Positions 2,222 through 61,618 of a stretch of DNA of 64,000 bases are shown here, piece after piece (position 1 is the first letter of the stretch; the number at the start of each line of letters is the position of its first letter). Origin of the DNA: Nonlabens marinus S1-08 (GTDB lineage Bacteria; Bacteroidota; Bacteroidia; Flavobacteriales; Flavobacteriaceae); contig NZ_AP014548.1 in assembly GCF_000831385.1 (NCBI RefSeq), positions 2,719,779 through 2,783,778 of the forward strand. Reading direction: 5' to 3'. The translations under genes and the position numbers were made by a program. The notes below the pieces were generated by a model. That model saw only the letters and a list, made by a program, of their open reading frames with translations, was not told where the DNA came from and ran no database searches.

Positions 2222-2237
2222 CGCTTTCGCGGAAGCG
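2222..2237. repeat. Iterated palindrome, variant copy
   Basis: CGCTTTCGCGGAAGCG has one mismatch to the 16-bp palindrome. It is intergenic, between the acyl-CoA dehydrogenase terminator and the mscS promoter. Confidence 0.8.
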
Positions 2238-2298
2238 AACTCCTACCCCATCAAGCTACACTTAACAATTTACTAAGGGGATTTGAGACTTAAGGCAA

Positions 2299-2306
2299 TA
2301 TATTTG
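2299..2306 (+). promoter_or_regulatory. Candidate -7 element for the MscS gene
   Basis: TATATTTG matches the Bacteroidota -7 consensus TAnnTTTG exactly, 20 bp before the ATG. The nearest TTTG upstream is only 13 bp away, so the -33 element is not convincing. Confidence 0.4.
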
Positions 2307-2325
2307 CCAAAAATTCAATCTATTT

Positions 2326-3135
2326 ATGGAAGAGTTTAAAATCGAGAATGTTCTAGAATTATTGTTGGAATATGGTATTCCCGTTCTAAAAGCTATTGTC
2401 TTATATATTATAGGTGCCTGGTTGATCAGTAGAGCTATAAAAATCACTGGTAAAATCATGACCAAGCGGGAATATGAGATGACGCTTCAAAAGTTTCTAC
2501 TCAATATTATTCGATGGGTACTTTGGATATTATTGATTGTTGCTATTGTTGGGACTCTAGGTATAGAAACCAGTGGTTTTGCCGCAGCCTTAGCAGCAAT
2601 GGGTCTAGCTATTGGTCTTGCTTTACAAGGATCTCTATCTAATTTTGCCGGTGGCGTTCTCTTATTACTCTTCAAACCTTTCAAGGTAGGTGATACGGTA
2701 GAAGCTCAAGGTATCTCTGGGACTATTCAAGAAATTGACATTTTACAAACTAAAGTGTTGATGTTTAACCGTAAAACAGCGATCATACCTAATGGTCCAT
2801 TACTTAATGGTAACATTATCAACTTCGATTCTTCTGGTATCCTGCGCGTGGAAACTGAAATAGGTGTAAGCTATGATGCAGATATTCCAAAAACCATTGA
2901 AGCTCTCAGGAAATTAGCGACAGATCATCCTCTAACCTTAGAAGATCCAGCACCCATCGTGGAGGTTGTCACTAATGCAGATAGTAGTATTAATATTTTA
3001 GTAAGACCGTATACGTTGACTGAAGATCACTGGACAGTTTATTTCTATCTACAGAAAAATTTCAAACCAACTCTCGATGCTATAGGAGTGGAAATTCCTT
3101 ATCCGCATCATGTGGAGATTCGCAAGCAGAGCTAG
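2326..3135 (+). CDS. Small-conductance mechanosensitive channel, MscS family
   Basis: This 269-residue inner-membrane protein should open under membrane tension to release solutes during osmotic downshock. Three transmembrane helices are visible at about 15-38, 58-80 and 84-116. The third is the Gly/Ala-rich pore helix, with GLALQGSLSNFAGG at about 97-110, the family signature. A cytoplasmic beta domain follows (KPFKVGDTVE, then an IPNGP loop). Length matches E. coli MscS (286). It is a single-gene unit with its own candidate promoter and terminator. Family assignment is secure; ion selectivity cannot be read from the sequence. Confidence 0.93.
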   Translation: MEEFKIENVLELLLEYGIPVLKAIVLYIIGAWLISRAIKITGKIMTKREYEMTLQKFLLNIIRWVLWILLIVAIVGTLGIETSGFAAALAAMGLAIGLALQGSLSNFAGGVLLLLFKPFKVGDTVEAQGISGTIQEIDILQTKVLMFNRKTAIIPNGPLLNGNIINFDSSGILRVETEIGVSYDADIPKTIEALRKLATDHPLTLEDPAPIVEVVTNADSSINILVRPYTLTEDHWTVYFYLQKNFKPTLDAIGVEIPYPHHVEIRKQS

Positions 3136-3151
3136 TTGAATCAAAATACCG

Positions 3152-3181
3152 AAAAGCCGTTCGACATAGAGCGGCTTTTTT
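3152..3181 (+). terminator. Terminator after mscS-like gene
   Basis: An 8-bp stem (AAAAGCCG / CGGCTTTT) is followed by a T run, 16 bp after the stop codon. Confidence 0.85.
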
Positions 3182-3301
3182 AATGGCATTAAATCTAAGC
3201 TTTGAATCTGCCTATCTTACTCATTTACTGCCTTCTTTAGGTTCATTTTAGCAAAAAAATGAATTCGTGGGCAGTACCTTGTAGCAGATAAATTGACTTT
3301 T

Positions 3302-3961: not shown

Positions 3962-4032
3962 TACAAGATCAGTATCCAGCAGTTCTATAATACGTTTCAT
4001 ATTTTTTTTGATGCAGAGTTTTATGAGGTTTC

Positions 4033-4048
4033 CGCTTTCGCGAAAGCG
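4033..4048. repeat. Iterated palindrome CGCTTTCGCGAAAGCG
   Basis: Exact copy, intergenic, 31 bp upstream of the M28 peptidase start codon. Confidence 0.95.
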
Positions 4049-8286: not shown

Positions 8287-8302
8287 CGCTTTCGCGAAAG
8301 CG
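8287..8302. repeat. Iterated palindrome CGCTTTCGCGAAAGCG
   Basis: Exact copy with TT/AA flanks, giving a 20-bp perfect palindrome. Intergenic, 15 bp after the response regulator stop codon. Confidence 0.95.
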
Positions 8303-8436: not shown

Positions 8437-8442
8437 TTATAG

Positions 8443-12026: not shown

Positions 12027-12042
12027 CGCTTTCGCGAAAGCG
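12027..12042. repeat. Iterated palindrome CGCTTTCGCGAAAGCG
   Basis: Exact copy in the 82-bp gap between the tamL stop codon and the DUF805 start. Confidence 0.95.
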
Positions 12043-14420: not shown

Positions 14421-17400
14421 TTAGTTGTTTTTATCCACTTCAGTTTCTTCTTCTTTCCTTGCGTTCTTTTCCTCTTCTTTTTTGGCTTTGTCTGCTTCCT
14501 CTTTCACTGTTTTAGCAAATAGATTTTTGAATTCATTGAACTCCTTAGTAAATATCAAGCTGATCCCGCTTATTATCAATTGCCCATCTATGACATTATC
14601 ATATTGATTTCTACGGAAACCTTTTAAACGCCATTGACCGCTTTCGGTTAACAGGTATTCAATACTAACATTACCTATAACTGGTGTGGGACCTTCTTCC
14701 TCTGAGGCGCTTCCTTGAAGATCCACCTCGCTACCCACACTTACAATCAATCGATCGTCTAAAAGTTTCTTACTTGCAGTGACATCTAGTTGCGTGCGTT
14801 CTTGTGGACTGTTCCCTTGATAATCCGTATAACTATCCAGGCCAAAATTTAAATCCACTCCAGTATTACCCAGTAATTGACCACCAAACTGATTTAATTG
14901 ATCACTCAAAGCCTGATTGATATTATCTCTTGCGATCGCTGCCGTACCTCCAGAACTACCGTCAGCACCGCTGGTCGGGAAAAATTTATTCAATACCAAT
15001 AGAGAAAATACTTGTTTATTCAACTCTTGATCCTGATTGTTCAATTGTTGTACCCGACCATAAACTTGGCCGCCTATAGCGCCTTGTTCATCTTCCGGCA
15101 TGTCTAATCTGAAACTAATGACAGGCTGCATCAATTCCCCATCTACATTTAAGTAAACTAAAAAAGGTAATTCTTGACGGAATCTGTTTTTAGTTGTCAC
15201 ATCAGCACCACTCGTTTGTGAGGCCATTAAAGCGCTTGCGCTAGTTTCTACTTTATAAATGGCTCGAACATCAAGGTTTGCATCAAATGGATCGCCTGAC
15301 CATGAAACACTGCCGCCTTTAGCCAACTCAAATCTTCTAGAAACAATGTCGTACAAGCTTAATTCGTAGAACCCATCGCTGATTTCATACCTACCAGCTA
15401 GTGTCATGCGACCATTAGGCGTCATGCGGAATTTCAAATCTCCATCTCCCGCAACTTGCAGATTATCACCTGTGCTAGGATCCACTATAACATTGATTTT
15501 GGCACCACTGGATATTTTTAAATCGGCTGTGATGTCGTAGCCGGTCAGCGTCGCGCTCTCTTCCTCTGTTTGAGTTAGGATGTCATCTGGGTTTTCTTTA
15601 TTCACAAACTGCACGATGCCTTCCCGCTGCACAATGTCCAACTCAGTGGGTGGAATTACATAAGTCACATTAGTAGAATCATCCACATCTAGTGTTAGAT
15701 CTACCACAGGAACATTTAAATCTCCAGTAATTGTAGCTCGAGCGTCAAATGTGGCTTTCCCGTAGTACAACTCGTTGTCTTTTGCGGTAGAATTAAGCGC
15801 AGTGAAGTTGTTAGCCGTCATGCGTAGATCGAAGGTGGGATTTAGTAGATTTTCAGTTCCAACCGTTCCATCCACGATAAAACTGTTATTATCCGCATCA
15901 GTAATTTCAAAGTTATTCATGGTGATGCCCTTGTTATCCACTTGCAAGATTTCATCTTTCACGGTAAACGGCGCATTAAGCATATTCACGGTGAACCCTG
16001 CATTATTGAAATTGAATTGACCCTCATAAACAGGATCTAGGGTAGTACCTGTAAGTTTCATAGAACCAGACACATTTCCTTTTCCTTCAGACAAAAATTC
16101 ACTGGCAATTCCAGTGACCGTAGACATGTTCAGTTTTTGCAAATCAAGACCTAGATTAAGCTCGGCTGCTACAGGATCTACTCGATAATCACCGGTCAAA
16201 TCCAGGTCAACATTTTCTCCTTTTACGGTCATGTTCATGGAATACAGATCGCCATTTCCAGAATTAGCATCGAGGCTCAACACTCCTAATGGTACTTGCA
16301 GTACATTAAAATCATCAATTCTCAAGTCAGCCGAAAAGCCCATTTTTTGAAACACATCTTCTAATACAAACTGTCCATTCAAGCGCCCGCTGGCAAGCTT
16401 TTCGTCTGGATTTAAAAAGCTTAAAAAAGCCTGCAATCGGAAGTTTTCCAAAAGCAATCCCACATGCTGTTTCTCTATGCCTGTAATATCGTTGCGCATT
16501 TCAATGCTTTGAGCATCATTTGACAATTTAAAATTATTGAAGAGTATTGTTTCATCTGTATAAACCACACTGTTTCCATCGGGAATACTCCAGCGTTGCT
16601 TGTTAAGAATTAGGTCTTCTAGTTTCAATTTGAATATGAGGTCTTCAGTTCCTTGTTGGTTACGCTTTCGCGAAAGCGTACTTCCAAACTGCATCAGTTT
16701 CTCATCGTCATCATAAGAAATGAAATCCAGATTCAATTCATTCTGTGCAATAACTCCAGTCAGCTTAGTACGTTTGATGCCCAAAGGGCCTGCTTCTAAG
16801 TCTTTAAACCCTACGGAAAACCTCAAGTCTGTAGCATCAGATCTAGATGTAATTAATAAACTGTCGATCTCGCTGCCCGCATACCTAAAGTAAGGAACAG
16901 TAATATCTGTATTCAATTTGCGATCCCGTTCATTGAAGTCCACTGAAATATTAACGGTATCTAGCGCTTCTAAACTAGGCAATATGACATCCCTCAATAT
17001 AGGGGAGGGACTTACGGTACCCTTAATTTTCATTACCACAGGCGGGATGGTATCCATGGCTGTACTGGTGGTTAAATACCGGTCGATGTGCCTTTGCAAT
17101 GCGCTGGCGAGGTTTGCGGGATCTGTATTAGAACGCAATTGCAAGTCGAGCATTTTATTTTTGACATCTACTGCAGTGCTGTCTGGCTGGACGTAGGCTC
17201 GCAAATTAACATTACCTAGCAAATAGGATTGCTGATCATAGACCGCAATACCGTCAGCAACGTTTGTGGTTACTTCATAATTCTCGAGATTGCCTTTAAA
17301 GTTTGCAGTAAGCTTACCTGCTGCCTTCACGTTTTGATTTGTGATCCCAAAAGCACGCAGATCCACTCCTTCAATGTCCAATTGAAGATTTGCCTGAGTA

Positions 17401-19499
17401 GCCACACTGTCTAAAACAATTTGGCTGTTCAAATCCAAATCAATATTGTCATCTCTATAAGTAGAAGTAACCGCTCCATTCCCATCCTTAAAATTACCCG
17501 TGATAGGTAAGTTTTGAATTTCATAGCCGCTATAGGTAAAACTATTGATCGTAGCGTCAACCATGGCATCCAGATCATTCAAGCTATTCCCAGAACCTCT
17601 AGCTTCTATATCTAAATTTAATTTGCCGTATTGCGGATTTTGCAACAATACTCCCAAATCAACCTCTTGAGCCTTGACAATCGCATTAAAAGATAGTACC
17701 TCTTGATTTTTGAAACCACCATTAAGTTCTATGGAACCATTTGAAGTGGTCAGTGTGGCTTTCGTTTCTATGTCATCCAGGCGCCCTTGAAGACTTCCTG
17801 CTAGAGAAAATCGTTCTGGCGGCTGTATGCCTAACTCTTTTTCACTAATGAACTTAGTCAAGTCCTTTCTTGTCGAGCGCATCTTGATGGATGGAAAATC
17901 CACATATAAATTTTCTACATCTGTAGCATTGCGCAGGGAGCCGCTGGCGATGATGGCTGTTTCATTACCCCAATTTGTAACTAAATTAGGTATGCCCAAA
18001 TTCTTTGTAGAACCTGAGGCTTTCAAACTTCCCGTTAACAGACGCTGGCTCAAGGTCGCTAGATATTTATTTGACCGCAACTCTGGAGCAAATAAGAAAA
18101 CGTCAGATAAATCAATTTTATAGCTAGGGATCTGTGCATCGACGCTTAGGTTCTCTGGATTAACCATGAATTGATTCATACTAGAAAAACCTAATTCAAC
18201 CTTTCCCTGAAGGCTGTTGTTATTGACTTGAGCATTCAAATCAGCAACCATAATTTTAGTATCACTCATGTAAGCTTGGGCACCCAGCTGATTCACTACA
18301 ATGCCAGAAGCTTCTGATCCTGAGAGTTCCTTAATGTCTACAGATGCTTCAGCATTTTGATAAACGAAATCCTCAGCGACCAGGTGTACCTTATCAAAAT
18401 CTAATGCATTAGGGTTAAAATAACCCTTTGTTACCGTTGCATCATCTAGAGTGTAGAGCAAATCGTTGTTGTTGAGATCGATATCTTTTACCGCAATATC
18501 TAACTCTGGCCATTCAAAAACGAAAGGCTCAGGAGCGCCCACCGTACGCATTCTCAAGGTGATTTCTGAATTGTTTAGCGTAATAAAATCTACTACATAG
18601 CTGCTGTTTTGGACATCAGCCTTAGAAATAGAGGTTTCTAAAAACCCAATAAAACTATTAAGATTGATTGCGTCAGGAACGGATTCATAAGCTAATTTGA
18701 CTTGATCCAATTTTAAATTTCCCACTGTGATTAGGGGTAATGGGGAGTCGCCAGCGTCATCAGTGATTGCTTCAGCAATGGTGGAATCCGTGTTGGGATC
18801 ACTGTCTTTTTCCGCTTTCGCGAAAGCGGCAACCGTATCCTTATCGTAACTCACAATGGCATTTTTAAGTGAAATCTGGTCGATATCTACAATCATCTTC
18901 TCTAAATCCAACTCATTCATGGAAAGCTGAAATTCATCAAATTTGATAACCGCATTTAGATTATCTACCTCATCCTTAAGAGTGATGTCAAAGTTTTTAA
19001 AGTCCAGATCGCCAATGGACAGCTGCAAGGGCTCTGTGGTAGTAGTCGTATCCTCCACCGCAAAAGCGTCGATTAAAAACTGGTAATTGAATCCTGAAAT
19101 AGTGTCCTTACGGGAAATGCGTGCTTTGAAACCATTCCAATTGGCATTTTCAATAGAGTAACCATTGCCTTGAATGATAGGCCAGAGCGGTACATCGGCT
19201 TCTAGATGTTTGGAATAGAACAAGGTATCACCCTGTTGATCTGCCAGATACAGACCGTCTAGTTGTATATCTCCATCAAAAGTTACAAACAGCTTCTCTA
19301 CAGAAACTTCTGTTCCTGTTTTTCCTTCTACATAGTTAACCACTTGATCCACTATAATTCCTTGACCCCACGGACTGCGAATAAAAAGCACTAGAGCAAC
19401 CAAAAAAATAAAAAACCCTAAAAAAATACGCCCCAGCCTGCGCAGCCAGCGGTATTTTCTAGGGGAATTTTCGGTTTTTTTATTCTCTTGATCACTCAA
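14421..19499 (-). CDS. tamB: TamB, translocation and assembly module / AsmA-like protein
   Basis: The 1692-residue product has one N-terminal membrane helix (about 20-43) after a basic cytoplasmic tail. A very long repetitive beta-rich region follows, with many segments alternating hydrophobic residues as in the AsmA-like beta-taco. The C-terminal DUF490/TamB domain (about 1330-1640) is followed by a Lys/Glu-rich tail. It should bridge inner and outer membranes with TamL, which follows in the operon. Two iterated palindromes are embedded in frame, encoding AFAKA near residue 225 and LSRKR near 942. Length is in the range for Bacteroidota TamB. Confidence 0.92.
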   Translation of the reverse strand: MSDQENKKTENSPRKYRWLRRLGRIFLGFFIFLVALVLFIRSPWGQGIIVDQVVNYVEGKTGTEVSVEKLFVTFDGDIQLDGLYLADQQGDTLFYSKHLEADVPLWPIIQGNGYSIENANWNGFKARISRKDTISGFNYQFLIDAFAVEDTTTTTEPLQLSIGDLDFKNFDITLKDEVDNLNAVIKFDEFQLSMNELDLEKMIVDIDQISLKNAIVSYDKDTVAAFAKAEKDSDPNTDSTIAEAITDDAGDSPLPLITVGNLKLDQVKLAYESVPDAINLNSFIGFLETSISKADVQNSSYVVDFITLNNSEITLRMRTVGAPEPFVFEWPELDIAVKDIDLNNNDLLYTLDDATVTKGYFNPNALDFDKVHLVAEDFVYQNAEASVDIKELSGSEASGIVVNQLGAQAYMSDTKIMVADLNAQVNNNSLQGKVELGFSSMNQFMVNPENLSVDAQIPSYKIDLSDVFLFAPELRSNKYLATLSQRLLTGSLKASGSTKNLGIPNLVTNWGNETAIIASGSLRNATDVENLYVDFPSIKMRSTRKDLTKFISEKELGIQPPERFSLAGSLQGRLDDIETKATLTTSNGSIELNGGFKNQEVLSFNAIVKAQEVDLGVLLQNPQYGKLNLDIEARGSGNSLNDLDAMVDATINSFTYSGYEIQNLPITGNFKDGNGAVTSTYRDDNIDLDLNSQIVLDSVATQANLQLDIEGVDLRAFGITNQNVKAAGKLTANFKGNLENYEVTTNVADGIAVYDQQSYLLGNVNLRAYVQPDSTAVDVKNKMLDLQLRSNTDPANLASALQRHIDRYLTTSTAMDTIPPVVMKIKGTVSPSPILRDVILPSLEALDTVNISVDFNERDRKLNTDITVPYFRYAGSEIDSLLITSRSDATDLRFSVGFKDLEAGPLGIKRTKLTGVIAQNELNLDFISYDDDEKLMQFGSTLSRKRNQQGTEDLIFKLKLEDLILNKQRWSIPDGNSVVYTDETILFNNFKLSNDAQSIEMRNDITGIEKQHVGLLLENFRLQAFLSFLNPDEKLASGRLNGQFVLEDVFQKMGFSADLRIDDFNVLQVPLGVLSLDANSGNGDLYSMNMTVKGENVDLDLTGDYRVDPVAAELNLGLDLQKLNMSTVTGIASEFLSEGKGNVSGSMKLTGTTLDPVYEGQFNFNNAGFTVNMLNAPFTVKDEILQVDNKGITMNNFEITDADNNSFIVDGTVGTENLLNPTFDLRMTANNFTALNSTAKDNELYYGKATFDARATITGDLNVPVVDLTLDVDDSTNVTYVIPPTELDIVQREGIVQFVNKENPDDILTQTEEESATLTGYDITADLKISSGAKINVIVDPSTGDNLQVAGDGDLKFRMTPNGRMTLAGRYEISDGFYELSLYDIVSRRFELAKGGSVSWSGDPFDANLDVRAIYKVETSASALMASQTSGADVTTKNRFRQELPFLVYLNVDGELMQPVISFRLDMPEDEQGAIGGQVYGRVQQLNNQDQELNKQVFSLLVLNKFFPTSGADGSSGGTAAIARDNINQALSDQLNQFGGQLLGNTGVDLNFGLDSYTDYQGNSPQERTQLDVTASKKLLDDRLIVSVGSEVDLQGSASEEEGPTPVIGNVSIEYLLTESGQWRLKGFRRNQYDNVIDGQLIISGISLIFTKEFNEFKNLFAKTVKEEADKAKKEEEKNARKEEETEVDKNN
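16663..16678. repeat. Iterated palindrome inside tamB
   Basis: Exact copy read in the frame that gives Leu-Ser-Arg-Lys-Arg near residue 942 of TamB. Confidence 0.95.
18813..18828. repeat. Iterated palindrome inside tamB
   Basis: Exact copy read in the frame that gives Ala-Phe-Ala-Lys-Ala near residue 225 of TamB, in an acidic, poorly ordered stretch. Confidence 0.95.
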
Positions 19500-20933: not shown

Positions 20934-23900
20934 TTACATATTTCTCCTATACTGACCTCCTACTTCAAAAAGAGCCTCGGTAATTTGTCCTAGGGAGCAA
21001 ACTTTAGTGGCTTCCATCAAGTGTTCAAAAATGTTTTCTTGATGTACCGCTGCTTTCTGGATGGAGGAAAGCTGTTCTTGTTGCGCTTTCGCGAAAGCGG
21101 AATGTAAATTATCCTTTGTGGTAATTTGAGCTTTTTTCTCTTCTTCCGTCGCACGAATAACCTCAGCCGGCAAAACGGTTGGACTACCTTTTGAACTCAA
21201 GAAGGTATTCACTCCTATGATTGGGAACTCTCCTGTGTGTTTCAACATCTCATAATGCATGGATTCTTCCTGAATCTTACTGCGCTGGTACATGGTTTCC
21301 ATGGCACCCAACACACCGCCACGTTCTGTAATGCGGTCGAATTCTTCTAAAACTGCAGCTTCCACAAGATCTGTCAACTCTTCAATAATAAAAGCTCCTT
21401 GGATAGGATTCTCATTTTTGGCAAGTCCTAACTCCTTATTGATAATCAGCTGAATTGCCATCGCACGTCTCACAGATTCCTCAGTCGGCGTCGTGATAGC
21501 TTCGTCATAAGCGTTGGTATGTAACGAATTACAATTGTCGTTGATGGCATAAAGCGCCTGCAATGTCGTTCTTATATCGTTAAAGTCAATTTCTTGAGCG
21601 TGCAGTGATCTACCGCTGGTTTGAATGTGGTATTTCAACATTTGCGCCCGTTCATTAGCGCCATATTTAATCTTCATCGCTTTTGCCCAGATTTTCCTAG
21701 CCACACGACCGATTACAGAATATTCTGGATCGATACCATTAGAGAAAAAGAAACTTAGATTAGGACCAAACTTATTAATGTCCATCCCACGACTCAGATA
21801 ATATTCTACATAGGTGAAACCGTTTGCTAGTGTAAAAGCCAGTTGCGTGATCGGATTTGCTCCTGCCTCAGCAATGTGATAACCAGATATGGAAACACTA
21901 TAGAAGTTACGCACCTTTTCTTCAATAAAATATTGCTGCACATCACCCATCAATCGCAGGGCAAATTCGGTTGAGAAAATACAGGTGTTTTGAGCCTGAT
22001 CTTCTTTCAGGATATCCGCTTGTACCGTTCCTCTAACTTGTGCTAGCGTCTCTGCTTTTATTCTTGCATAGTCTGCTGGTTCAAGTATTTGATCACCAGT
22101 TAAACCTAACAACATCAATCCTAGCCCATCATTACCTTCTGGCAATTTATTGACGTCTACTTGGCCGTTTTTAGAATATACTTTATCGCCATCTGCATTG
22201 AGGTAGGAAGGGCGCTCTAGATTGTTGTCATCATAAACTTCTTTCAGCTTTTCTTCTACCTTGTCGCCCAGGTTATTTTCTGTAATGAATCGCTCGCAAT
22301 TTTGATCAATCGCAGCGTTCATGAAAAAACCTAACAACATAGGCGCTGGTCCATTGATCGTCATGGAAACCGATGTCATGGCATGTGACAAATCAAAACC
22401 AGAATACAATTTCTTAGCATCATCCAGACAGCAAATACTTACTCCAGCATTACCGATTTTTCCATAAATATCTGGACGCAATCCTGGATCATTACCGTAG
22501 AGCGTTACACTGTCAAATGCAGTACTCAAACGCTTAGCTGGCATTCCAAGACTTACGTAATGAAAACGTTTATTAGTACGTTCTGGTCCACCTTCACCTG
22601 CAAACATTCTGGTAGGATCCTCTCCAGTTCTCTTGAAAGGATATAATCCTGCCGTATAAGGAAACTCGCCAGGAACATTTTCTTGCAAACACCATTTTAA
22701 AATATCGCCCCAAGCACTGTATTTAGGCAAGGCAACTTTGGGAATCATTTTATGGGAAAGTGATTCCGTATGTGTTTCAATTTTTATGACTTTATCGCGT
22801 ACTTGAAATTCATAAATAGGTTGCTTATACTTATTTACTTTCTCATCCCACGTGAAGATAATTTCCCAATTGTAAGGGTCTAGATCTTTAAGTGTTTTGT
22901 TGAACTGGGCAATGAGCAATTCTGTGAAGTCTTTGTCATCCTGAACTTGTTTCAGGATCTCTTCTTCGTTTAATCCTTTATCTGTCAATAAACTGTTCTC
23001 GACTGTACTTCGACTGCGCTCAGCAACCGCGCTCGAACTAACATTCTCTTTTTGATCAATAACCGTTACGATCGTTTTATAAATTCCAAATAGTTTCTGA
23101 GCTACATGAGACTGTACCGCAGCAGTATTGTCATAGGCTCTATTACTTTCAGCAATCTCGCTCAAGTAGCGAGTTCTTGCTGGTGGAATCACAAATATCT
23201 TTTCGCTTTGCGTGGTATTTAGCTCGTTGGTAGAACTAAAATCTACTTTAGTCTTTTCTGTAATCTCGCCCATTAAAGCTTCATACAAGGCATTCATTCC
23301 TGGATCGTTGAATTGGCTCGCAATAGTGCCGTAAACAGGTAGCGTGTTAGGATCTGCTTCCCATAGATTATGATTGCGTTGGTATTGTTTTTTGACATCT
23401 CGCAAGGCATCCAGTGAACCACGCTTGTCAAATTTATTGATGGCAACTACATCAGCAAAATCAAGCATATCGATTTTTTCAAGCTGAGTCGCCGCACCAA
23501 ATTCTGGTGTCATTACATATAAAGACACATCGCTATGCTCTAAAATCTCGGTATCGCTTTGCCCTATTCCACTGGTTTCAAGAATAATCAGGTCATAGTT
23601 GGCTGCTTTCAAAATATCTACTGCTTCTTGCACGTGTTTAGACAAAGCTAGATTGGACTGTCGAGTGGCCAGCGATCGCATATAAACGCGGTCGTTATTA
23701 ATGGCATTCATGCGGATTCTATCTCCCAATAAAGCGCCTCCTGTTTTTCGCTTAGATGGATCAACAGAAATTACCCCTATATTTTTTTCTGGAAAATCGA
23801 TTAAAAATCTCCGAATCAATTCGTCAACCAAAGATGATTTCCCTGCCCCACCAGTTCCGGTAATTCCTAGTACTGGTGCTTGTTTTTCAGTTTTATCAGC

Positions 23901-32553: not shown

Positions 32554-32569
32554 CGCTTTCGCGAAAGCG
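32554..32569. repeat. Iterated palindrome CGCTTTCGCGAAAGCG
   Basis: Exact copy between the stop codon of the barrel gene (32579) and its terminator. It shares the flanks GATAAG(T/C)T and AAATAAAC with the copy at 35441. Confidence 0.95.
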
Positions 32570-35440: not shown

Positions 35441-35456
35441 CGCTTTCGCGAAAGCG
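35441..35456. repeat. Iterated palindrome CGCTTTCGCGAAAGCG
   Basis: Exact copy between the DUF2911 stop codon (35474) and its terminator, with the same flanks as the copy at 32554. Confidence 0.95.
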
Positions 35457-42153: not shown

Positions 42154-43575
42154 CTACTCTATAAAATTTTCATTTTTGAAGCCTATAAGGTACAAATTTG
42201 TTTTGGCTCTTGTTACTGCTGTATACAACCACCTCAAATACTCTTTACTAGGCCCTTCTGGCAAATAGGGTTGTTCTATAATGACATTTTCCCACTGACC
42301 TCCCTGCGATTTATGACAAGTGATCGCATAAGAAAACTTGACTTGAAGCGCATTAAAATATTGGTTTGCCTTGATTTCTTTGTATTGCTTCCATTTAGGT
42401 AACTTCAAGTAATCCATCCGTACCTCTTGATACAGTTTATTGCTTTGCTCATAAGTCAGCGATGGGGATTCTGAAGTCAAGGTGTCTAATAAAAGAGTGG
42501 TTTCAAAAGGTCTCGCATTTGGATAATCTACCATGCGCACCTTAACGTTAGCAAACTTAAAATCATAGATCTCTTTAAAATCAAATATTTCTAGTACCTC
42601 AATGATATCACCGTTTGCTATAAAACCAGCGTCACTGCTAGATTCCAACCAGTGGTAATTATTCTTCACTACCATCAGATAATCGCCTGTGGCCAGTTCG
42701 CTTTCGCGAAAGAGAATACGCGACCGTATTTGTTGGTTATAAAGATTTGCGCGTTTGTTAGAACGTACAATAATCGCTGTTTCCTCATGGCCCTGATTGT
42801 CATACGCACTCATGACCGTTTCCATGATCTCGTGACCATCAATCAACCGATGAATGTCAGGAAAAGGCATCACATTAAATTTAAAACTGGGGTCATCTTG
42901 CTCAATATGCTCTCTTATTTGAGTCGCGTTGTACAGAATACCAGATTCTACACTTTGCCTTTTAACCTCGTCAAGCTCAATATCTGTAACTTCTTTCAAA
43001 TACCGTTGGCCTATTAAACCAGCATCCAGCGCTGGAGAGATATCCAGTTTGACTGGAGGTAACTGTGCCGTATCCCCTATAATGATAAGTTTACACTTAT
43101 AACCGTTATAAACGTATTCAATCAAATCATCTAGAAGCGATCCATTACCGCCGAACATTTTATTATCTGCCGCAACATCAGGAATCATGGAGGCTTCATC
43201 CACTATGAACAAAGAGTTTCTATGCTTATTTACCTTGAGGCTGAATTGGACATTTCCTGATCCCTGACCTTTAGGAAAATAGATCTCGCGATGAATGGTA
43301 GCTGCCTGTTGATTGGAATAATTACTAATGACCTTAGCGGCTCTTCCAGTAGGTGCTAGAAGCACTGCACTTTTTTTTATTTTCCAAATACTCTTAACCA
43401 GGCTACTAATTATTGTAGTCTTTCCCGTACCTGCATACCCACGCAACATAAAAATACGGTCCTTTTCTGGATCGAGAATAAAGTCTGCAAGCTCCTCTAG
43501 GGCACGTTCTTGCTGGAAAGTAGGTTCAAATGGAAAGTCAAGTTTGAGAATCTTAAAGAAATCTTGTGGAGTCAT
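42154..43575 (-). CDS. RecD2/Dda-like DNA helicase, UvrD_C_2 type
   Basis: The 473-residue SF1 helicase has the Walker A GYAGTGKTT (46-54), Walker B FIVDEASM, and the C-terminal motif VI region with WLYTAVTRAKTNLYLIGF preceded by SYAITCHKSQG. This layout matches the short RecD-like/Dda helicases widespread in Bacteroidota, which unwind DNA 5' to 3'; the polarity is from family knowledge. A degenerate iterated palindrome encodes FRES near residue 290 in an exposed-looking loop. It begins the kdsB operon. Confidence 0.9.
   Translation of the reverse strand: MTPQDFFKILKLDFPFEPTFQQERALEELADFILDPEKDRIFMLRGYAGTGKTTIISSLVKSIWKIKKSAVLLAPTGRAAKVISNYSNQQAATIHREIYFPKGQGSGNVQFSLKVNKHRNSLFIVDEASMIPDVAADNKMFGGNGSLLDDLIEYVYNGYKCKLIIIGDTAQLPPVKLDISPALDAGLIGQRYLKEVTDIELDEVKRQSVESGILYNATQIREHIEQDDPSFKFNVMPFPDIHRLIDGHEIMETVMSAYDNQGHEETAIIVRSNKRANLYNQQIRSRILFRESELATGDYLMVVKNNYHWLESSSDAGFIANGDIIEVLEIFDFKEIYDFKFANVKVRMVDYPNARPFETTLLLDTLTSESPSLTYEQSNKLYQEVRMDYLKLPKWKQYKEIKANQYFNALQVKFSYAITCHKSQGGQWENVIIEQPYLPEGPSKEYLRWLYTAVTRAKTNLYLIGFKNENFIE
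42699..42714. repeat. Iterated palindrome, variant copy inside helicase gene
   Basis: CGCTTTCGCGAAAGAG, one mismatch to the consensus. It is the only copy read in the third frame, as Leu-Phe-Arg-Glu-Ser. Confidence 0.8.
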
Positions 43576-45847: not shown

Positions 45848-45955
45848 AAATTAAAAATTCGCAATCACAATGTTTGCATCAAATTGAAAATTGACAACCG
45901 GAAATTGAGATTTGGAACGTTAGACCTGAAACTTGGAACTTAAAATCAATAATTA
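45848..45955. other. Low-complexity intergenic DNA
   Basis: Short degenerate segments of the GAAA(C/T)TTGGAACTT and GAAATTGA type repeat several times. No gene is seen. Together with the microsatellite this fills the space between rsmD and rnpB. Confidence 0.5.
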
Positions 45956-45960
45956 AAAAA

Positions 45961-46282
45961 AGCAGGCCTATAAGCCGGATCCTGTAGCCTCGCACAAACG
46001 AGACTCTCTATCATTTATCTAGGATCGCAATTACTCACGACCTCAAACTGCCTACCCTTCAGAATCGCGCGGATCGCGCTCAAACTCTAATTTACGCGAC
46101 ATTTCACCACATAGAGTTTACCTGGTTTCACTACAGCATTACCTGTACATTCTTTCTGTTGCACTGGTCCTAATTCGTTCTCGCTTTCGCGAAAGCGAAC
46201 CGACGGCCGTTAGCCGCTATGTTATCCTATGGTGTCCGGACTTTCCTCCCCAACTTGCGTTGCGACGATAGAGCGGCCTGCT
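45961..46282 (-). ncRNA. rnpB: RNase P RNA
   Basis: The minus strand contains the P4 motif GAGGAAAGTCCGGACAC (plus 46232-46248), ACCAGTGCAACAGA of the specificity domain, GGTAAACTC and GGGTAGGC, and ends with ACAGGATCCGGCTTATAGGCC. Helix P1 forms from AGCAGGCC at the 5' end and GGCCTGCT at the 3' end, followed by a T run (terminator). Length (322 nt) is short for an A-type RNA. It cleaves the 5' leader from tRNA precursors. The hairpin between P8 and the ACCAGTGCAACAGA segment, in the position of P9, is made from an exact copy of the iterated palindrome (46182-46197). Confidence 0.95.
46182..46197. repeat. Iterated palindrome inside rnpB
   Basis: Exact copy located at the P9 hairpin position. 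Flanking GTT and AAC extend the stem with one bulged G. Confidence 0.95.
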
Positions 46283-46286
46283 GTGG

Positions 46287-48234: not shown

Positions 48235-48250
48235 CGCTTTCGCGAAAGCG
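48235..48250. repeat. Iterated palindrome CGCTTTCGCGAAAGCG
   Basis: Exact copy between the stop codon of the barrel gene (one base away) and the terminator. Confidence 0.95.
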
Positions 48251-49776: not shown

Positions 49777-51821
49777 GCGTCATTTTTATTTTCGTAATAC
49801 TGGTAGGTGGCATATTGTGACCTGATCTTAGTTTTACCATTTGAAACGTAAGAATTGGATTGCTCTTTATCAATAACTCGAGCTTTCACATTGTCATTCC
49901 AGCATATATCAAAAGTTTCCAAAATTTCTCTTTTCACATCTTCATCATAGATAGGACAAGCAATTTCCACACGACTGTCAAGGTTGCGCTGCATAAAATC
50001 TGCACTTGAAATATAAACCGAACTATTGCCGTCATTATGGAAGTAATAGACTCTAGGATGTTCTAAGTATCGATCGACAACACTGATAGCTTTGATATTC
50101 TCACTCATTCCCGTTACCCCAGGAACCAGACAGCAAATACCACGCACAATGAGCTCTATCTTTACACCGGCCTGCGAGGCTTGGTAGAATAAGTCAATCA
50201 TTTTGAAGTCAGAGAACGAATTTAATTTTAAGCGAATGAGTGCATGTTTTCCTGCTTTCGCGAAAGCGATCTCTCGACGAACCAATTGCTCAATTCTAGA
50301 TCTTAAAAAGTTAGGACTTACTAGCAGGTGCTCGTATTTATGCTGTTTGTAGTTGACCTGGAAGAATTCAAAAACGCGTTCTACCTCCTTTAAAATTCTC
50401 TTATCTGCAGTAAACAAAGTATAATCTGTGTATACACCCGCAGTAGATTCATTGAAGTTACCGGTGGAAACAAAACCATAGCGCTTCAACTTGCCCTCTT
50501 CTCGCCTTGTGATCATACAAGCTTTGCAATGCACCTTCAGACCAGGTACTCCAAATATCATCTGGATGCCTTCTTCTTGCATCAATTCGGCATAATTGAT
50601 ATTTGCCTGCTCGTCAAATCGGGCTTGTAATTCTATGGAAACAGTAACCTGCTTTCCGTTTTTTGCAGCATTGATAAGAGAACCCGCAATTTGTGAGACT
50701 TCAGCAAGTCTGTATATGGTAATCTTCACCTCTTCTACATGAGGATCTAATGCAGCTTCTCTTAAGAATTTAGTAGTATTTGCAAAGGTGTGATATGGAG
50801 CGTATTGTAATATATCTTTCTCTGCAATACGCTTTAAGAGCGACCCTTTAATGTCAATACCTTTTATAGGTAATGGGGCTTGCTGTTCATAGAGCAAGTC
50901 TTTACGTCCCAAACTAGGAAATTTGAGATAATCACGGCGGTTATGATACCTACCACTAGGAATGATGGAATCCATATCATCAATCTCCAGCTTACTCATG
51001 ATTAAATCAATGGTGTCTTTACTTATTTCTCTGTCAAATACAAATCGAACAGGATCACCGTCTTTACGATCATAGACACTGTCCCTTATCTTCTCAAGTA
51101 GACTCTTCTTTAAGTCCAGATCTATATCTAGTTGAGCATCCAGGGTCACCTTAATCATATGCGCCTCAATTTCTTGATACTCAAAGATGCTGAACAAGTA
51201 ATGCATCCTGTGGCGTATCAAATCATCAATCAATATAACATACTGCTTCCCATCTTCTAGATCTGGTAGTACTACAAATCGATTGAGATGTTTAGGTTTT
51301 TCAATAAGAGCGTGTCGTATTTCACCATTTTTGAAAGTCATACGTACTGCTAAGTACCCCATTCCATCCTGTAAAGGTGGGAACGGTGCTTTGCCATCAA
51401 TCATGATGACCCCTAAAGCTGGACTTACTTTCTCATTGAAATATTTACGGATGTACATCTCGTGTTCTTTCAACACTTCCTTCTCATCAACGATGATGAT
51501 ATGTTCTTTAGCCAGTTCATTTTCCAAATCATTCAAAATTTGAAAACTCAGCGTTTGATCTTCTATTACCGTTTGATTGATCTCGTTCAACAAATCCCCA
51601 GCAGATATACCTCCTAGAGACTTAGTAGCATTCTTACCTGCACGGTAAATGCGTTGAATCGTGGCATACCTGACCTTAAAAAATTCATCTAGGTTATTCG
51701 AAAAAATACCTAAGAATCGCAAACGTTCGATAAGTGGTACTGTAGGATCATTAGCTTCCTGAAGGACACGAGCATTAAACTTGAGCCAGGATAATTCCCG
51801 GTTGAAATAGCGTGGGGTCAT
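49773..51821 (-). CDS. ppk1: Polyphosphate kinase 1
   Basis: The 682-residue enzyme makes polyphosphate from ATP. The autophosphorylated His is most likely His431 in KVHCKACMITRR. The N-terminal FNRELSWLKFNARVL and the C-terminal PLD-like repeats with STGNFNESTAGVYTDYTLFT are typical. An in-frame variant palindrome encodes AFAKA near residue 519 in the C-terminal part. It overlaps ppx by 4 bp and the sixA-like gene by 1 bp. Confidence 0.94.
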   Translation of the reverse strand: MTPRYFNRELSWLKFNARVLQEANDPTVPLIERLRFLGIFSNNLDEFFKVRYATIQRIYRAGKNATKSLGGISAGDLLNEINQTVIEDQTLSFQILNDLENELAKEHIIIVDEKEVLKEHEMYIRKYFNEKVSPALGVIMIDGKAPFPPLQDGMGYLAVRMTFKNGEIRHALIEKPKHLNRFVVLPDLEDGKQYVILIDDLIRHRMHYLFSIFEYQEIEAHMIKVTLDAQLDIDLDLKKSLLEKIRDSVYDRKDGDPVRFVFDREISKDTIDLIMSKLEIDDMDSIIPSGRYHNRRDYLKFPSLGRKDLLYEQQAPLPIKGIDIKGSLLKRIAEKDILQYAPYHTFANTTKFLREAALDPHVEEVKITIYRLAEVSQIAGSLINAAKNGKQVTVSIELQARFDEQANINYAELMQEEGIQMIFGVPGLKVHCKACMITRREEGKLKRYGFVSTGNFNESTAGVYTDYTLFTADKRILKEVERVFEFFQVNYKQHKYEHLLVSPNFLRSRIEQLVRREIAFAKAGKHALIRLKLNSFSDFKMIDLFYQASQAGVKIELIVRGICCLVPGVTGMSENIKAISVVDRYLEHPRVYYFHNDGNSSVYISSADFMQRNLDSRVEIACPIYDEDVKREILETFDICWNDNVKARVIDKEQSNSYVSNGKTKIRSQYATYQYYENKNDA
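50253..50268. repeat. Iterated palindrome, variant copy inside ppk1
   Basis: TGCTTTCGCGAAAGCG, one mismatch at the outer base. Read as Ala-Phe-Ala-Lys-Ala near residue 519. Confidence 0.85.
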
Positions 51822-53067: not shown

Positions 53068-53083
53068 CGCTTACGCGAAAGCG
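53068..53083. repeat. Iterated palindrome, variant copy
   Basis: CGCTTACGCGAAAGCG, one mismatch, with TT/AA flanks. Intergenic, between the pdxH operon start and the tRNA terminator. Confidence 0.85.
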
Positions 53084-56850: not shown

Positions 56851-57612
56851 ATGAAATACGGGATCTGCCCCATTTCTATTGTTCCATTACGATTGGAAGC
56901 AAGAGATCAAAGCGAAATGATCTCTCAGGTGTTGTATGGTGAAGTTTTTAAAATCATAGAGTATCGTAAAAAATGGTCCAAAATCAGGCTGCATAATGAT
57001 CAATACGAAGGTTGGTTAGACAATAAGCAACTACTAGAAATTTCTAGCGAGGAATATCATGAATTAGCTGATGGCCTTGATATCGCTTTCGCGAAAGAAC
57101 CACTGAGCATCGTAACTCACAAAGACAGCACATTGAGTACTCTAGTTTTAGGATCTCAAGTGTCCTCAGCTAGTTTTTTGGGAGATAAATTCCAAAGTGA
57201 CACAGTTCGGGAGCAGGCCCAGGCTAGTAACAAAGAACAAATAATTGACCATGCACTTTTAATGTTGAACGCTCCTTATCTATGGGGTGGCAGGAGCTGT
57301 TTAGGTATAGATTGTAGTGGGTTTACCCAGCTTATGTACCGATTGAATGGATATCGTCTTTCAAGAGACGCTAGCCAACAAGCCACACATGGTCAGGTAT
57401 TGAGTTTTATAGAAGAATCAGACCCTGGAGATCTCGCCTTTTTTGATAATACTGAAGGAGCTATCACTCACGTAGGGATCATCATGAAGGATAACCATAT
57501 CATACATGCCCACGGAAAAGTACGAATTGATAGGCTTGATCAAAGCGGTATCTTCAATTTAGATTCTGGTAGTCATACTCATAAATTGAGAATGATTAAA
57601 AAAATATTGTAA
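56851..57612 (+). CDS. NlpC/P60 peptidoglycan hydrolase with SH3-like domain
   Basis: A 253-residue protein with an SH3b-like N-terminal domain (about 5-70) and an NlpC/P60 domain (about 130-250). The catalytic Cys155 is in GIDCSGFTQLM, His207 in THVGI, and a third polar residue near His219 (IIHAHG). It should cleave D-Glu-DAP bonds in peptidoglycan. No signal peptide is evident, so it may act on recycled muropeptides in the cytoplasm. A variant palindrome is read in frame as IAFAKE near residue 79. It follows the thiolase stop directly. Confidence 0.9.
   Translation: MKYGICPISIVPLRLEARDQSEMISQVLYGEVFKIIEYRKKWSKIRLHNDQYEGWLDNKQLLEISSEEYHELADGLDIAFAKEPLSIVTHKDSTLSTLVLGSQVSSASFLGDKFQSDTVREQAQASNKEQIIDHALLMLNAPYLWGGRSCLGIDCSGFTQLMYRLNGYRLSRDASQQATHGQVLSFIEESDPGDLAFFDNTEGAITHVGIIMKDNHIIHAHGKVRIDRLDQSGIFNLDSGSHTHKLRMIKKIL
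57084..57099. repeat. Iterated palindrome, variant copy inside NlpC/P60 gene
   Basis: CGCTTTCGCGAAAGAA, two mismatches at the 3' end. Read in frame as Ala-Phe-Ala-Lys-Glu near residue 80. Confidence 0.75.
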
Positions 57613-58876: not shown

Positions 58877-58893
58877 TGTATATGTTTTAATTA

Positions 58894-61431
58894 TTATTCT
58901 TCACTATCGTCTTCTGCAAGGGTTGTGCCATCTTCAGGTGCTGATTCTGCAGTAGCTTCAGCTTCAGAAATTTCTGCTCCTTCCTCCTCATCTTCTTCTT
59001 TAGCAACTTTCGCGACAGCGGCAATGCTATCGTTACCTTTAAGATTGATTAATCGAACACCTTGAGTTGCGCGTCCCATAACTCTAAGATCGGAAACATC
59101 GATACGAATTGCAACTCCTGATTTGTTGATGATCATTAAACCGTCATCATCTTGGACGTTTTTAAGCGCTACAAGGCCGCCAGTTTTATCAGTAACAGAT
59201 ATGGTCTTAACACCTTTACCTCCACGGTTGGTCTCACGATAATCTTCAAGGCTGGAACGTTTTCCATATCCTTTCTCAGAAACCACAAGAATCTCAGAAT
59301 CCATTTCATTTACTGCAACCATTCCGATCACCTCGTCATTATCGTCTGCTAGACGTATTCCTCTAACCCCACTGGCATTTCTACCCATAGGGCGGGTTTT
59401 AGACTCGTCAAATCGGATGGCTTTACCACTTTTAAGACCTAGTAGCACGTGACTGTCACCTGTCGTTAATTTTGCTTCTAACAACATATCCCCATCACGA
59501 ACGGTAATCGCATTAATACCATTAGATCGCGGTCTAGAATATTGTTCTAAGGATGTTTTCTTAACGATTCCTTTCTTAGTACACATGATGACGTAATGGC
59601 TATTGATGTACTCTTCATCCTTAATATCTTGAGTACAAATGACTGCTTTGACATTGTCATCTTGCTCGATATTGATCAAGTTTTGAATAGCTCTTCCTTT
59701 TGAAGTACGGCTGCCTTCTGGGATTTCAAAGACTCTCATCCAGAAACATTTTCCTTTCTCTGTAAAGAACAACATGTACTGGTGGTTTGTCCCAACGAAA
59801 ATATCTTCTAAGAAATCTTCATCCCTAGTGGTGCTGGCTTTTTGCCCTACTCCACCTCTATTCTGAGTTTTGTATTCGTTAAGGCTTGTCCTTTTAATAT
59901 AACCTGCATGTGATATGGTAATGACTACTTGCTCATCAGGAATCATATCTTCCATGCTCAAGTCGCCACCTGCATACTCAATTTTTGAACGACGCTCATC
60001 ACCATACTTGTCACGCACCATTGCCAATTCCTCTTTGATAATCTCCATTCTGCGCTCTACTTTCTCCAGAATTTCCTTTAAGTCTGCGATAGTGAGCAAC
60101 AATTCATCATACTCAGTACGTAGCTTGTCTTGCTCTAATCCTGTCAATTGACGTAGACGCATTTCTACAATGGCACGAGCCTGTATTTCAGACAATTCGA
60201 ATCGTTGGATCAAATTCTCACGAGCTTCCTCTCCATTTTGACTGGCACGAATAATTTTGATGACCTCATCAATATTATCGCTGGCAATGATCAATCCTTC
60301 TAAAATATGCGCTCGCTCTTCAGCCTTGCGTAAATCATAGGTAGTTCTGCGTACAATTACATCTAGACGGTGTTCCACAAAATAGTGGATCATATCCTTG
60401 ACGTTTAGCATTTGTGGCCTTCCTTTCACAAGCGCGATGTTATTCACGCTAAATGAGGATTGTAATGCCGTGTGCTTATACAATGTATTTACAACGATGT
60501 TAGGAATCGCATCACGCTTCAATATGTAGACAATACGCATCCCGTTTCTATCCGATTCATCACGGATGGAAGAAATACCTTCTAGCTTCTTATCATTAAT
60601 AAGGTCTGCCGTTTTCTTGATCATATCGGCTTTATTGACCTGATATGGCAATTCGTCCACAATGATACACTCACGACCTTTCACCTCTTCAATTCTTACA
60701 CGACCACGTATTTTCACACGTCCACGACCGGTATGCATGGCTTCCTTTACACCGTCATAACCATAAATAATTCCTCCTGTTGGGAAATCTGGCGCTTTGA
60801 TGTGTTGTATAAGCTCGTCGATCTCTATGTCTGGATTATCCATGTAAGCAACGATTCCATCCACAACCTCAGTTAAGTTGTGTGGAGGCATATTTGTCGC
60901 CATACCTACAGCAATACCACTCGCCCCATTTACTAAAAGGTTAGGTATCTTAGTAGGAAGTACCGTAGGCTCTGACAAGGTGTCGTCAAAATTGAGCTGT
61001 GTATCTACCGTCTCTTTATCTATATCTGCAAGAAGTTCTTCAGAAATTTTGCGCATACGAGCCTCTGTATAACGCATTGCTGCTGGCGGGTCGCCGTCAA
61101 CAGATCCAAAGTTACCTTGACCATCAACAAGCATGTATCTTAATGACCATTCTTGAGCCATACGAACCATAGTGTCGTAAACTGAAGTATCCCCATGTGG
61201 GTGATACTTACCTAATACCTCTCCTACGATCCTGGCACTCTTTTTATATCCACGGTTGGAAAGAACCCCCAGTTCATACATCCCAAAAAGCACGCGCCTG
61301 TGTACTGGCTTCAAACCATCTCGTACATCTGGCAGTGCCCGTGACACTATGACTGACATCGAATAATCGATGTAAGCTGACTTCATCTCATCCTCAATGT
61401 TGATTGGGATTAACTTTTCTCCATCTGCCAT
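58894..61431 (-). CDS. gyrA: DNA gyrase subunit A
   Basis: The 845-residue enzyme introduces negative supercoils. The catalytic Tyr is Tyr121 in AMRYTEARM, and the quinolone region reads [10 protein letters not shown] (78-87) with Thr at the position usually Ser83. The C-terminal beta-pinwheel repeats (about 510-810) contain the GyrA-box-like VGQKAST. The acidic tail is Glu/Asp/Ala-rich. Length matches the family. A palindrome-like degenerate segment at 59000 is too diverged to count. Confidence 0.97.
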
Positions 61432-61549
61432 TTAAATCTCTTTTATTTACTTATAATTTTAACAAAGAGCAATTTAAGTAAAAAGTCAGTAAGGCTAAGG
61501 CTCTAGACTCGTTCTAAGCTTGTTTTTATTAACAGATTAGGCCGCACCA

Positions 61550-61558
61550 TGTGGATAA
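61550..61558. other. Single DnaA-box sequence
   Basis: TGTGGATAA is the complement of the consensus DnaA box TTATCCACA. Only one copy is visible, so it is not evidence for an origin. Confidence 0.4.
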
Positions 61559-61602
61559 GTTGTAAAATGCTTTAAATGACGTGACAATAACTGTAAATAG
61601 CC

Positions 61603-61618
61603 CGCTTTCGCGAAAGCG
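61603..61618. repeat. Iterated palindrome CGCTTTCGCGAAAGCG
   Basis: Exact copy in the divergent gap between gyrA and clpC, 81 bp before the clpC start. Confidence 0.95.

Follow-up and report, generated by a model that had tools for sequence, protein, structure and literature searches.

The DUS of Neisseria and the USS of the Pasteurellaceae are oriented, non-palindromic words that raise the uptake or transformation of DNA bearing them, and DUS dialects exist. E. coli Chi, which modulates the recombination nuclease, is oriented as well, is not known to be evenly spaced, and sits in GT-rich islands, while parS and Noc sites are 14- to 16-bp palindromes with TTTC...GAAA halves. Published work describes permissive placement, high conservation, and a spacing like that of conversion fragments for neisserial DUSs (PMC2397512), 230 USS pairs within 100 bp in Haemophilus (PMC7811141), and a link between the cyanobacterial palindrome HIP1 and orphan methyltransferases (PMC4390886). 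Here, we compared these systems with a 16-bp palindrome found throughout a 64-kb stretch of Nonlabens marinus S1-08 DNA (the window), for which an earlier note had proposed either a mobile palindromic element or a genome-wide binding site, with HIP1 and DNA uptake sequences as possible parallels.

Count, unit, and range of the palindrome

Allowing up to three mismatches, we found 22 sites in the window (16 exact, four with one mismatch, one with two, and one with three), compared to 100 dinucleotide shuffles, which averaged 0.14 sites and never held more than one. This recount bore out the 16 exact copies, the outer coordinates of 2222 and 61618, and the excess far above chance given in the earlier note, whose five near copies became six. 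That the word is a perfect palindrome and stop-free in all frames was seen directly, and the copy placed inside rnpB does lie there. The sites are listed below; genes were called by a simple longest-ORF heuristic, and G numbers denote genomes.

2222..2237, near copy (one mismatch) whose counterpart in G299 and G306 is exact
4033..4048, exact copy, intergenic
8287..8302, exact copy, intergenic, 15 bp past an ORF end
12027..12042, exact copy, outside genes as called by the ORF heuristic
16663..16678, exact copy in a TamB-domain gene (14421-19499, minus strand)
18813..18828, exact copy in the AFAKA frame of the TamB-domain gene (14421-19499, minus strand)
21084..21099, exact copy in the AFAKA frame of the fused methylmalonyl-CoA mutase gene; common to six of eight Nonlabens
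24003..24018, exact copy in a short indel region of the fused methylmalonyl-CoA mutase gene; common to eight of eight Nonlabens
28211..28226, exact copy in a PIG-L domain gene; G302 lacks the motif and aligns there without a gap
29713..29728, exact copy in a PIG-L domain gene, second reading frame
32554..32569, exact copy, intergenic
35441..35456, exact copy, intergenic
38351..38366, exact copy in an SLT transglycosylase gene
41575..41590, exact copy close to the end of a DUF4126 gene
42699..42714, near copy (one mismatch); G299 and G306 have the same mismatch
45955..46284, minus strand, rnpB (RNase P RNA, class A), host gene of the 46182 copy
46182..46197, exact copy, placed in a variable rnpB hairpin where the other aligned species have different sequence
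48235..48250, exact copy, intergenic; G304 has no copy and a length change
50253..50268, near copy (one mismatch) in a polyphosphate kinase gene; G299 and G306 have exact copies
53068..53083, near copy (one mismatch), lying between an ORF and tRNA genes, with an exact counterpart in G306
57084..57099, degenerate copy (two mismatches) in an NlpC/P60 gene
59005..59020, degenerate match (three mismatches) in a gyrA-family gene, which may be chance
61603..61618, exact copy, intergenic

The whole S1-08 genome (2,915,920 bp) carries 653 exact copies, about one per 4.5 kb, and none of the reversed pattern used as a control. The palindrome is therefore neither confined to the window nor at chance level, and the observation is confirmed in a stronger form than first stated. 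Across 264 kb of sampled stretches (including 9,874 masked bases in L090, where masking can only lengthen gaps), copies with zero, one, two, and three mismatches numbered 58, 8, 3, and 1, and 60 of 61 TTTCGCGAAA fell within the 12-base core. Outside the motif, no inner palindrome was in excess and the inner 6- to 12-mers were near expectation; the innermost word, CGCG, was observed 257 times against a Markov expectation of 366 (0.7). These data show that the palindrome is a long all-or-none unit; the proposed recognition sequence is 16 bp long, probably with a 14-bp core. A short methylation or restriction word was rejected, as no inner word was enriched outside the motif and only CGCG was somewhat rare. 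The 12-base core was not found in print in the literature searched.

High counts were restricted to three genera within our samples: 180 to 737 copies in 23 of 23 Nonlabens genomes, 138 to 711 in 18 of 18 Dokdonia genomes, and 153 in the single genome of a third genus (g190), these cross-species counts not being independent. Every remaining genome of the family sample (299) and the class sample (395) had at most 13. The earlier note, which had pointed to flavobacteria as the relatives, was right on this. We examined ten stretches from eight genomes, picked for recurring spacings from the 33 low-copy genomes of the 299-genome family sample, and all 23 copies sat in DNA homologous between genera, which rejects an independent system there; from its sequence, we read this DNA as a heavy-metal efflux cluster. 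No other iterated palindrome was found in 20 to 40 kb from each of four other genera, and a plasmid search with rnpB returned nothing.

In the similarity comparison, the window matched only loci of the “Nonlabens” list (8,095 bp, 71.9%), while one other G000 stretch aligned with Dokdonia over 1,588 bp (70.7%) and with Nonlabens over 828 bp (66.8%). This list, which also served for copy sharing with Dokdonia, includes three loci titled Flavobacteria bacterium BBFL7. Seven of 17 tested copies were common to Dokdonia and Nonlabens, a biased sample from which we drew no rate, since one shared motif-plus-flank pattern had been used to retrieve many of the loci. With its open backbone, the mutase tree is compatible with one origin or several. 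The edges of the motif differ by species, forming “dialects.”

Placement, conservation, and gain of copies

Copies of the palindrome repel one another. Among 390 gaps (the first 100 or so copies listed per genome, four genomes), none was shorter than 500 bp against 33 expected, and six were shorter than 1,000 bp against 61.7 expected; the distribution had a gamma shape of 3.6. Coverage along the chromosome was even (KS P = 0.84, 89 places). A pair of copies 996 to 997 bp apart recurred in G000, G299, and G319; the G000 and G319 stretches carry different genes. Permissive places are favored, with 27 of 58 copies in the roughly 10% of DNA called intergenic, often shortly 3' of stop codons, and others in the variable rnpB hairpin and in linkers. 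The remaining 31 lie inside coding ORFs.

Constraint on the copies acts at the DNA level. Third codon positions were conserved at 136 of 143 sites inside copies (95%) but at 1,161 of 2,314 beside them (50%), and identity was 94% inside copies compared to 67 to 77% in flanking bins. Protein-level selection for AFAKA was rejected, given these third positions and the existence of three reading frames and intergenic copies. In the sampled stretches, on which both flank and mismatch statistics were computed, about 25 nt on each side were on average GT-rich before the palindrome and AC-rich after it. This skew was dyad-symmetric and held for both genera and for coding as well as intergenic copies (a third flank set pools loci of all genera), while the flanks were not conserved as sequence. 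We rejected a longer hairpin, since past the first flanking pair there was no clear covariation of flank bases. The earlier note had contained neither the regular spacing and the all-or-none unit nor the skewed flanks, DNA-level constraint, three-genus restriction, and phage copies.

Relatives lacking the motif gave fully or largely gapless alignments at four of the five host coding places, and at the three phage places, that we examined. The Dokdonia mutase copy was gapless in 25 of 25 such relatives, the comEC copy in 9 of 9, and the second Nonlabens mutase copy in 17 of 24. One mutase copy coincided with an indel for 21 of 22 relatives lacking it, and length changes were seen at two noncoding places, rnpB and 48235. 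Because motif-free relatives are mostly gapless, base substitution is, as far as alignments show, the common route of difference from relatives, with indels at some places. The phage places lie in structural genes of a phage that has a transposase-bearing relative. Two isolated Nonlabens phages had no copy at up to three mismatches, but their host strain may itself be without the motif.

Possible roles of the palindrome

Our best explanation is that the palindrome is a lineage-specific, all-or-none DNA recognition sequence that marks the bacteria's own DNA every few kilobases. Tentatively, and a little short of an even call, we suggest a function closest to that of a DNA uptake sequence. A DNA-import or exchange machinery would prefer palindrome-bearing fragments; alleles gaining the palindrome, for the most part through base substitutions where the location is permissive, would then spread, and lost copies would be restored. 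If an imported or recombining fragment needs just one copy, nearby extra copies would gain nothing, which would yield the even spacing. The copy excess, three-genus restriction, all-or-none unit, spacing, DNA-level conservation, permissive places, gapless differences, and dialects all fit this model, from which we infer that the recognizer is an uptake machine and that drive, not other selection, maintains the copies. Published work reports that Riemerella columbina favors its own DNA (PMC7965970) and that transformation of Riemerella anatipestifer uses proteins of unknown function widespread in Flavobacteriaceae (PMC8459023). A literature search on uptake sequences in Dokdonia, and the titles among the matches listed in a wider competence search, gave no report of competence in Nonlabens or Dokdonia. 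All 14 genomes searched for ComEC, motif-bearing or not, had it; being equally present in motif-free genera, it explains nothing by itself. Against an uptake role, the motif occurs in phage structural genes, where homologous transformation should act weakly, and its symmetry points to a symmetric dimer. We know of no uptake sequence that is palindromic.

Such a dimer could instead be a chromosome-organizing or segregation protein, each site being kept by selection and serving a domain of a few kilobases, hence the even spacing. We regard this as possible, though well below an even chance. The perfect dyad, the dyad-symmetric flank skew of about 25 nt in both genera and both kinds of location, the uniform chromosome coverage, and the gain of copies by a phage whose relative bears transposases all argue for it. 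Protein sites, however, are usually degenerate, whereas here 58 exact copies stand against 12 with one to three mismatches. Motif genera also have no extra ParB-like paralog as a rule: a single ParB_N match turned up in 8 of the 9 motif genomes and 9 of the 10 others, while G000 and motif-free G021 had two each. With a single match in 17 of 19 genomes, we set aside an extra ParB/Noc-like paralog as the likely recognizer. The protein search covered the ParB_N and ComEC families and identified no recognizer.

It is unlikely that the palindrome is a Chi-like recombination or repair signal, bidirectional by virtue of its symmetry, whose GT-rich lead-up favors recombinase loading. The density of about one exact site per 4.5 kb and the GT-rich 5' context on either strand would suit such a signal, but 16 bp far exceeds the known Chi sites, and repulsion between copies is unexpected for it. 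We consider it quite improbable that the palindrome is a self mark, methylated or not, that shields DNA from a host defense nuclease, a role HIP1 may also have. In G299, a 35-kb stretch that includes a Wadjet system lacks exact copies except at its edges, and the scarcity of CGCG outside the motif and the orphan-methyltransferase link of HIP1 point the same way; the near-expected inner words and the two copy-free phages (subject to the caveat on their host) do not. Finally, we give hardly any credence to a mobile or REP-like palindromic element copied around the genome: the motif is hairpin-forming, repeated, and often follows stop codons, and the indel at one mutase copy and the length changes at rnpB and 48235 would fit, but the lack of clusters (0 of 390 gaps below 500 bp), the location of about half of the copies within genes, the unconserved flanks, and the gapless relatives at the Dokdonia mutase, comEC, 28211 (G302), second Nonlabens mutase, and three phage places speak against it, and on these alignments we rejected insertion as the main process. 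Of the earlier interpretations, the genome-wide binding site and the HIP1 and uptake-sequence parallels thus fit, while the mobile element does not.

A bolder proposal, to which we would also give somewhat less than even weight, is a new element class. Its unit would be a symmetric 66 bp or so (a 25-nt GT-rich flank, the invariant 16-bp palindrome, and a 25-nt AC-rich flank) serving as a regularly spaced landmark for some new symmetric protein, gained by substitution even in host phages, and distinct from uptake sequences, Chi, and HIP1.

As an uptake sequence, the palindrome would to our knowledge be the first in Bacteroidota and the first palindromic one, and it would offer a handle on a transformation machinery whose key components have yet to be found. 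As an architectural site, it would be a chromosome landmark of unusual regularity. In both cases, the three-genus range, the edge dialects, and the pairing of phages with and without the motif make the accumulation of such sequences testable.

Comparison with known systems

REPs and REPINs share short hairpin-forming repeats and intergenic enrichment with the palindrome. They are extragenic, go with a RAYT transposase in the genome, and spread by copying, whereas here 31 of 58 copies are in coding ORFs, differences from relatives are mostly substitutions, and copies are single with no clusters seen. HIP1 (GCGATCGC, an octamer of cyanobacteria) is likewise a highly iterated, genome-wide, lineage-restricted palindrome of unknown function. 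The present motif has another sequence in another phylum, is twice as long, has no inner word in excess, and is evenly spaced with an exclusion zone; we know of no methyltransferase linked to it. It resembles Chi in having a density close to that of the E. coli sites and a GT-rich 5' context but is palindromic, 16 bp long, and unoriented. It resembles parS and Noc sites in its length, symmetry, and TTTC...GAAA halves but differs in its hundreds of copies, its half-spacing, and the lack of an extra ParB paralog as a rule. DUS and USS also occur hundreds to thousands of times in a genome, with near-invariant sequence, genic and intergenic, in permissive places yet conserved, rare in foreign DNA, and with spacing tied to a length scale. 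The palindrome matches them in its great excess (653 copies against 0, and all sampled genomes of two genera), its placement (27 of 58 intergenic), its conservation (94% against 67 to 77% identity), and its edge dialects. It is unlike the Haemophilus USS in having no close pairs, and unlike both DUS and USS in being a perfect palindrome.

Abundance, unit, and range of the motif

The earlier note had described 16 exact copies of the palindrome CGCTTTCGCGAAAGCG in the 64-kb window, in great excess over chance. We recovered the same 16 and, allowing up to three mismatches, 22 places in all, compared to 0.14 in dinucleotide shuffles. The genome-wide count against chance that it had proposed bore this out, with 653 exact copies on one contig (2,915,920 bp) and none of the pattern reversed. 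Across 264 kb sampled from this genome, copies with 0, 1, 2, and 3 mismatches numbered 58, 8, 3, and 1, compared to 0, 0, 0.02, and 0.82 for half-site-shuffled palindromes. In a 244-kb sample, 60 of 61 occurrences of TTTCGCGAAA lay inside the 12-base core, and inner palindromes were not in excess outside the motif: CGCG occurred 257 times (366 expected), TCGCGA 25 times (28.8 expected), and TTCGCGAA and TTTCGCGAAA once each (0.7 and 1.0 expected). Thus, the unit is long and all-or-none.

In Nonlabens genome G304 (255 exact copies), 70 kb held 11 copies that deviate at one or two bases, 10 of them only at the outermost bases. G190, from a third genus, held 445 cores versus 153 full words. The window's genome prefers TTT before the word and AAA after it; Dokdonia genome G319 prefers TTA and TAA (13 cores). 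On average, the roughly 25 nt before the motif are GT-rich and C-poor and the 25 nt after it AC-rich and G-poor, at coding and intergenic copies of both genera. Since the flank pairs examined lacked clear co-variation past the first flanking base pair, and flanks were not conserved as sequence among Nonlabens, this skew is one of composition and does not amount to a longer palindrome.

At least one exact copy was present in 38 of 299 family genomes (236 genera). The word was iterated only in Nonlabens (three genomes, 495 to 653), Dokdonia genome G206 (630), and G190 (153), its genus being represented by this one genome; the next-highest counts were 13, 12, and 11. All 23 Nonlabens genomes had 180 to 737 copies and all 18 Dokdonia genomes 138 to 711. 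The core, counted in 397 family genomes, put the same three genera at the top (586 to 759, 917, and 445), followed by at most 21. Seven of 395 genomes in a class sample had a match, none above 2 except the window's own. In a named collection, a 21-mer containing the motif matched at least 113 stretches; among the 80 listed, 37 were titled Dokdonia, 34 Nonlabens, and 3 Flavobacteria bacterium BBFL7, with one each from Leeuwenhoekiella palythoae, Kordia, Algibacter, Acidobacteria, Cytophagaceae, and Flavobacteriaceae assemblies. The window's own DNA matched loci grouped as Nonlabens, BBFL7 included. All 23 copies examined in low-copy genomes (ten stretches, eight genomes) fell within DNA homologous between genera, and hence in transferred DNA. 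One gene cluster common to several flavobacterial genera (stretches L072 to L081, 67 to 99.9% identity), whose palindromes mark it as transferred, looks like heavy-metal efflux and includes a signal peptide, ...SAFAKAQ.

Constraint on the DNA and origin of copies

Though an ORF heuristic called about 90% of the DNA coding, 27 of 58 copies were intergenic. The 31 coding copies used all three frames (18, 9, and 4), the main one reading C GCT TTC GCG AAA GCG (AFAKA). With five further genomes (three Nonlabens and two Dokdonia) included, 62 of 122 copies were intergenic and 60 coding (39, 16, and 5). Conservation was compared against four other Nonlabens at about 72 to 74% nucleotide identity. At window places alignable across all 16 bases, copies were identical at 15 of 16 in G299, 14 of 15 in G306, 5 of 8 in G302, and 4 of 11 in G304. 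Identity was 94% in the motif interior and 67 to 77% in flanking bins. For seven copies in four genes, third codon positions were identical at 136 of 143 sites within the motif and at 1161 of 2314 up to 150 nt outside it, a comparison whose p-value is nominal because the species are related. The constraint plainly acts on the DNA.

We aligned relatives with and without copies, including those of a mutase gene.

Window 20934-24461 (-): a single 1,175-aa protein in which domains for B12 binding, a MeaB-like GTPase, and methylmalonyl-CoA mutase are fused; 30 of the 32 genomes searched hold near full-length relatives

Among 30 genomes, the first mutase copy was common to all eight Nonlabens, and 21 of the 22 others had an indel there. 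The second was present in six of eight Nonlabens; among the 24 that lack it, 17 aligned gapless and 7 with a two-codon gap, and one compared genome, G010, carried two synonymous changes in the motif's stead. The third was present in five of five Dokdonia, and all 25 genomes without it aligned gapless. In comEC, a copy occupied the same codons in both Dokdonia and in G190, read in another frame; alignment to nine genomes lacking it was gapless. At window 28211, G302 reads GCTTTTGAAAAGGCA (AFEKA where the motif gives AFAKA), again gapless. The rnpB copy lies within a variable hairpin whose length changes, and at window 48235, G304 has a length change and no copy. Taken together, these alignments show that copies in coding DNA commonly arise by substitution, and that changes in length occur as well.

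Spacing and phages

None of 390 gaps between exact copies was under 500 bp (random expectation, 32.6), and six were under 1000 bp (61.7 expected); these gaps come from four genomes (two Nonlabens, one Dokdonia, and G190), with roughly the first 100 listed copies of each. For 99 gaps in the window's genome, a gamma distribution (shape 3.6) fit far better than an exponential one (log-likelihood, −890.8 versus −923.0), and 89 places there showed a uniform distribution over the chromosome (KS p = 0.84). Pairs 996 to 997 bp apart occurred in three genomes (G000, the window's own, C1:258321/259317; G299:C4:134509/135505; G319:C1:345750/346747); the equal distance may be chance, because the G000 and G319 pairs sit among different genes. 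The contents of two long stretches without exact copies were as follows.

L281:6426-19721 (G319): 13 kb of a 38-kb gap, a giant TSP3-repeat protein of 4,431 aa in which the TSP3 repeat matches 27 times, along with Big_9 and a CHU_C signal for type IX secretion (T9SS)
L283:3744-9796 (G299): a Wadjet system in a gap of about 34-35 kb between edges, JetABCD by type I models (the JetA reading begins late versus the profile), adjoining STAND/Mrr-like ATPase genes

The word was found in 41 stretches of viral contigs. One 37-kb contig carries terminase, portal, major head, sheath, and baseplate hub genes, and the 28 kb fetched held six exact copies. Within the annotated collection, the terminase most similar to that of the contig (54.5% identity) comes from Winogradskyella phage Peternella_1, which encodes transposases and, by annotation, a Mu-like protein; this phage lacks the word even when four mismatches are allowed. 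The contig has seven core places, of which three were alignable to Peternella_1, in three different frames and gapless in the span shown. At one of the other four the match ended before reaching the place, and the remaining three gave no match. We infer that this metagenomic phage lives in a motif-bearing host. P12024S and P12024L, two isolated Nonlabens phages, had zero copies at up to three mismatches.

Candidate functions and known systems

Neither the 16-mer nor its 12-base core was found in print in the literature searched, which was largely open-access. Two other 12-base pieces appeared once each, in papers on an unrelated receptor and Taq polymerase, and among the matches listed nothing apparently relevant turned up on palindromes in Nonlabens, uptake sequences in Dokdonia, or DNA motifs in the two genera. 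A term search of a paper on HIP, the iterated cyanobacterial palindrome (PMC4390886), returned no “Flavobacter,” “Bacteroidetes,” or TTTCGCGAAA.

By analogy with known systems, the palindrome could plausibly, if tentatively, work as a DNA uptake sequence. Riemerella columbina, of the Flavobacteria, is reported to prefer its own DNA (PMC7965970), and transformation of R. anatipestifer involves functionally uncharacterised proteins that occur widely across the family (PMC8459023). ComEC, present in 14 of 14 genomes with or without the motif, is necessary for uptake and uninformative here. Against uptake stand the motif's presence in phage, the near absence of close copy pairs, and its perfect symmetry. 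Such symmetry suggests a dimeric protein, and a site for a symmetric chromosome-organising protein is a possible, slightly less likely alternative. A second ParB-like protein makes a poor candidate for the recogniser: 17 of 19 genomes had a single ParB_N match and motif-free G021, like the window's genome, had two. The second matches, in only these two of 19, lie inside an open frame of about 600 aa (G000:C1:1269093-1269371 and G021:C1:781633-781911).

Returning to uptake, the motif is unlike the Haemophilus USS, for which 230 pairs within 100 bp are reported (PMC7811141), in that its copies are almost never closely paired. In Neisseria, DUSs are reported to be conserved, to sit in permissive places, and to have a spacing like that of conversion fragments (PMC2397512). 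In length and sharpness the motif matches uptake sequences, as it does in being permissively placed and conserved, in having dialects, and in being restricted by lineage and scarce in foreign DNA.
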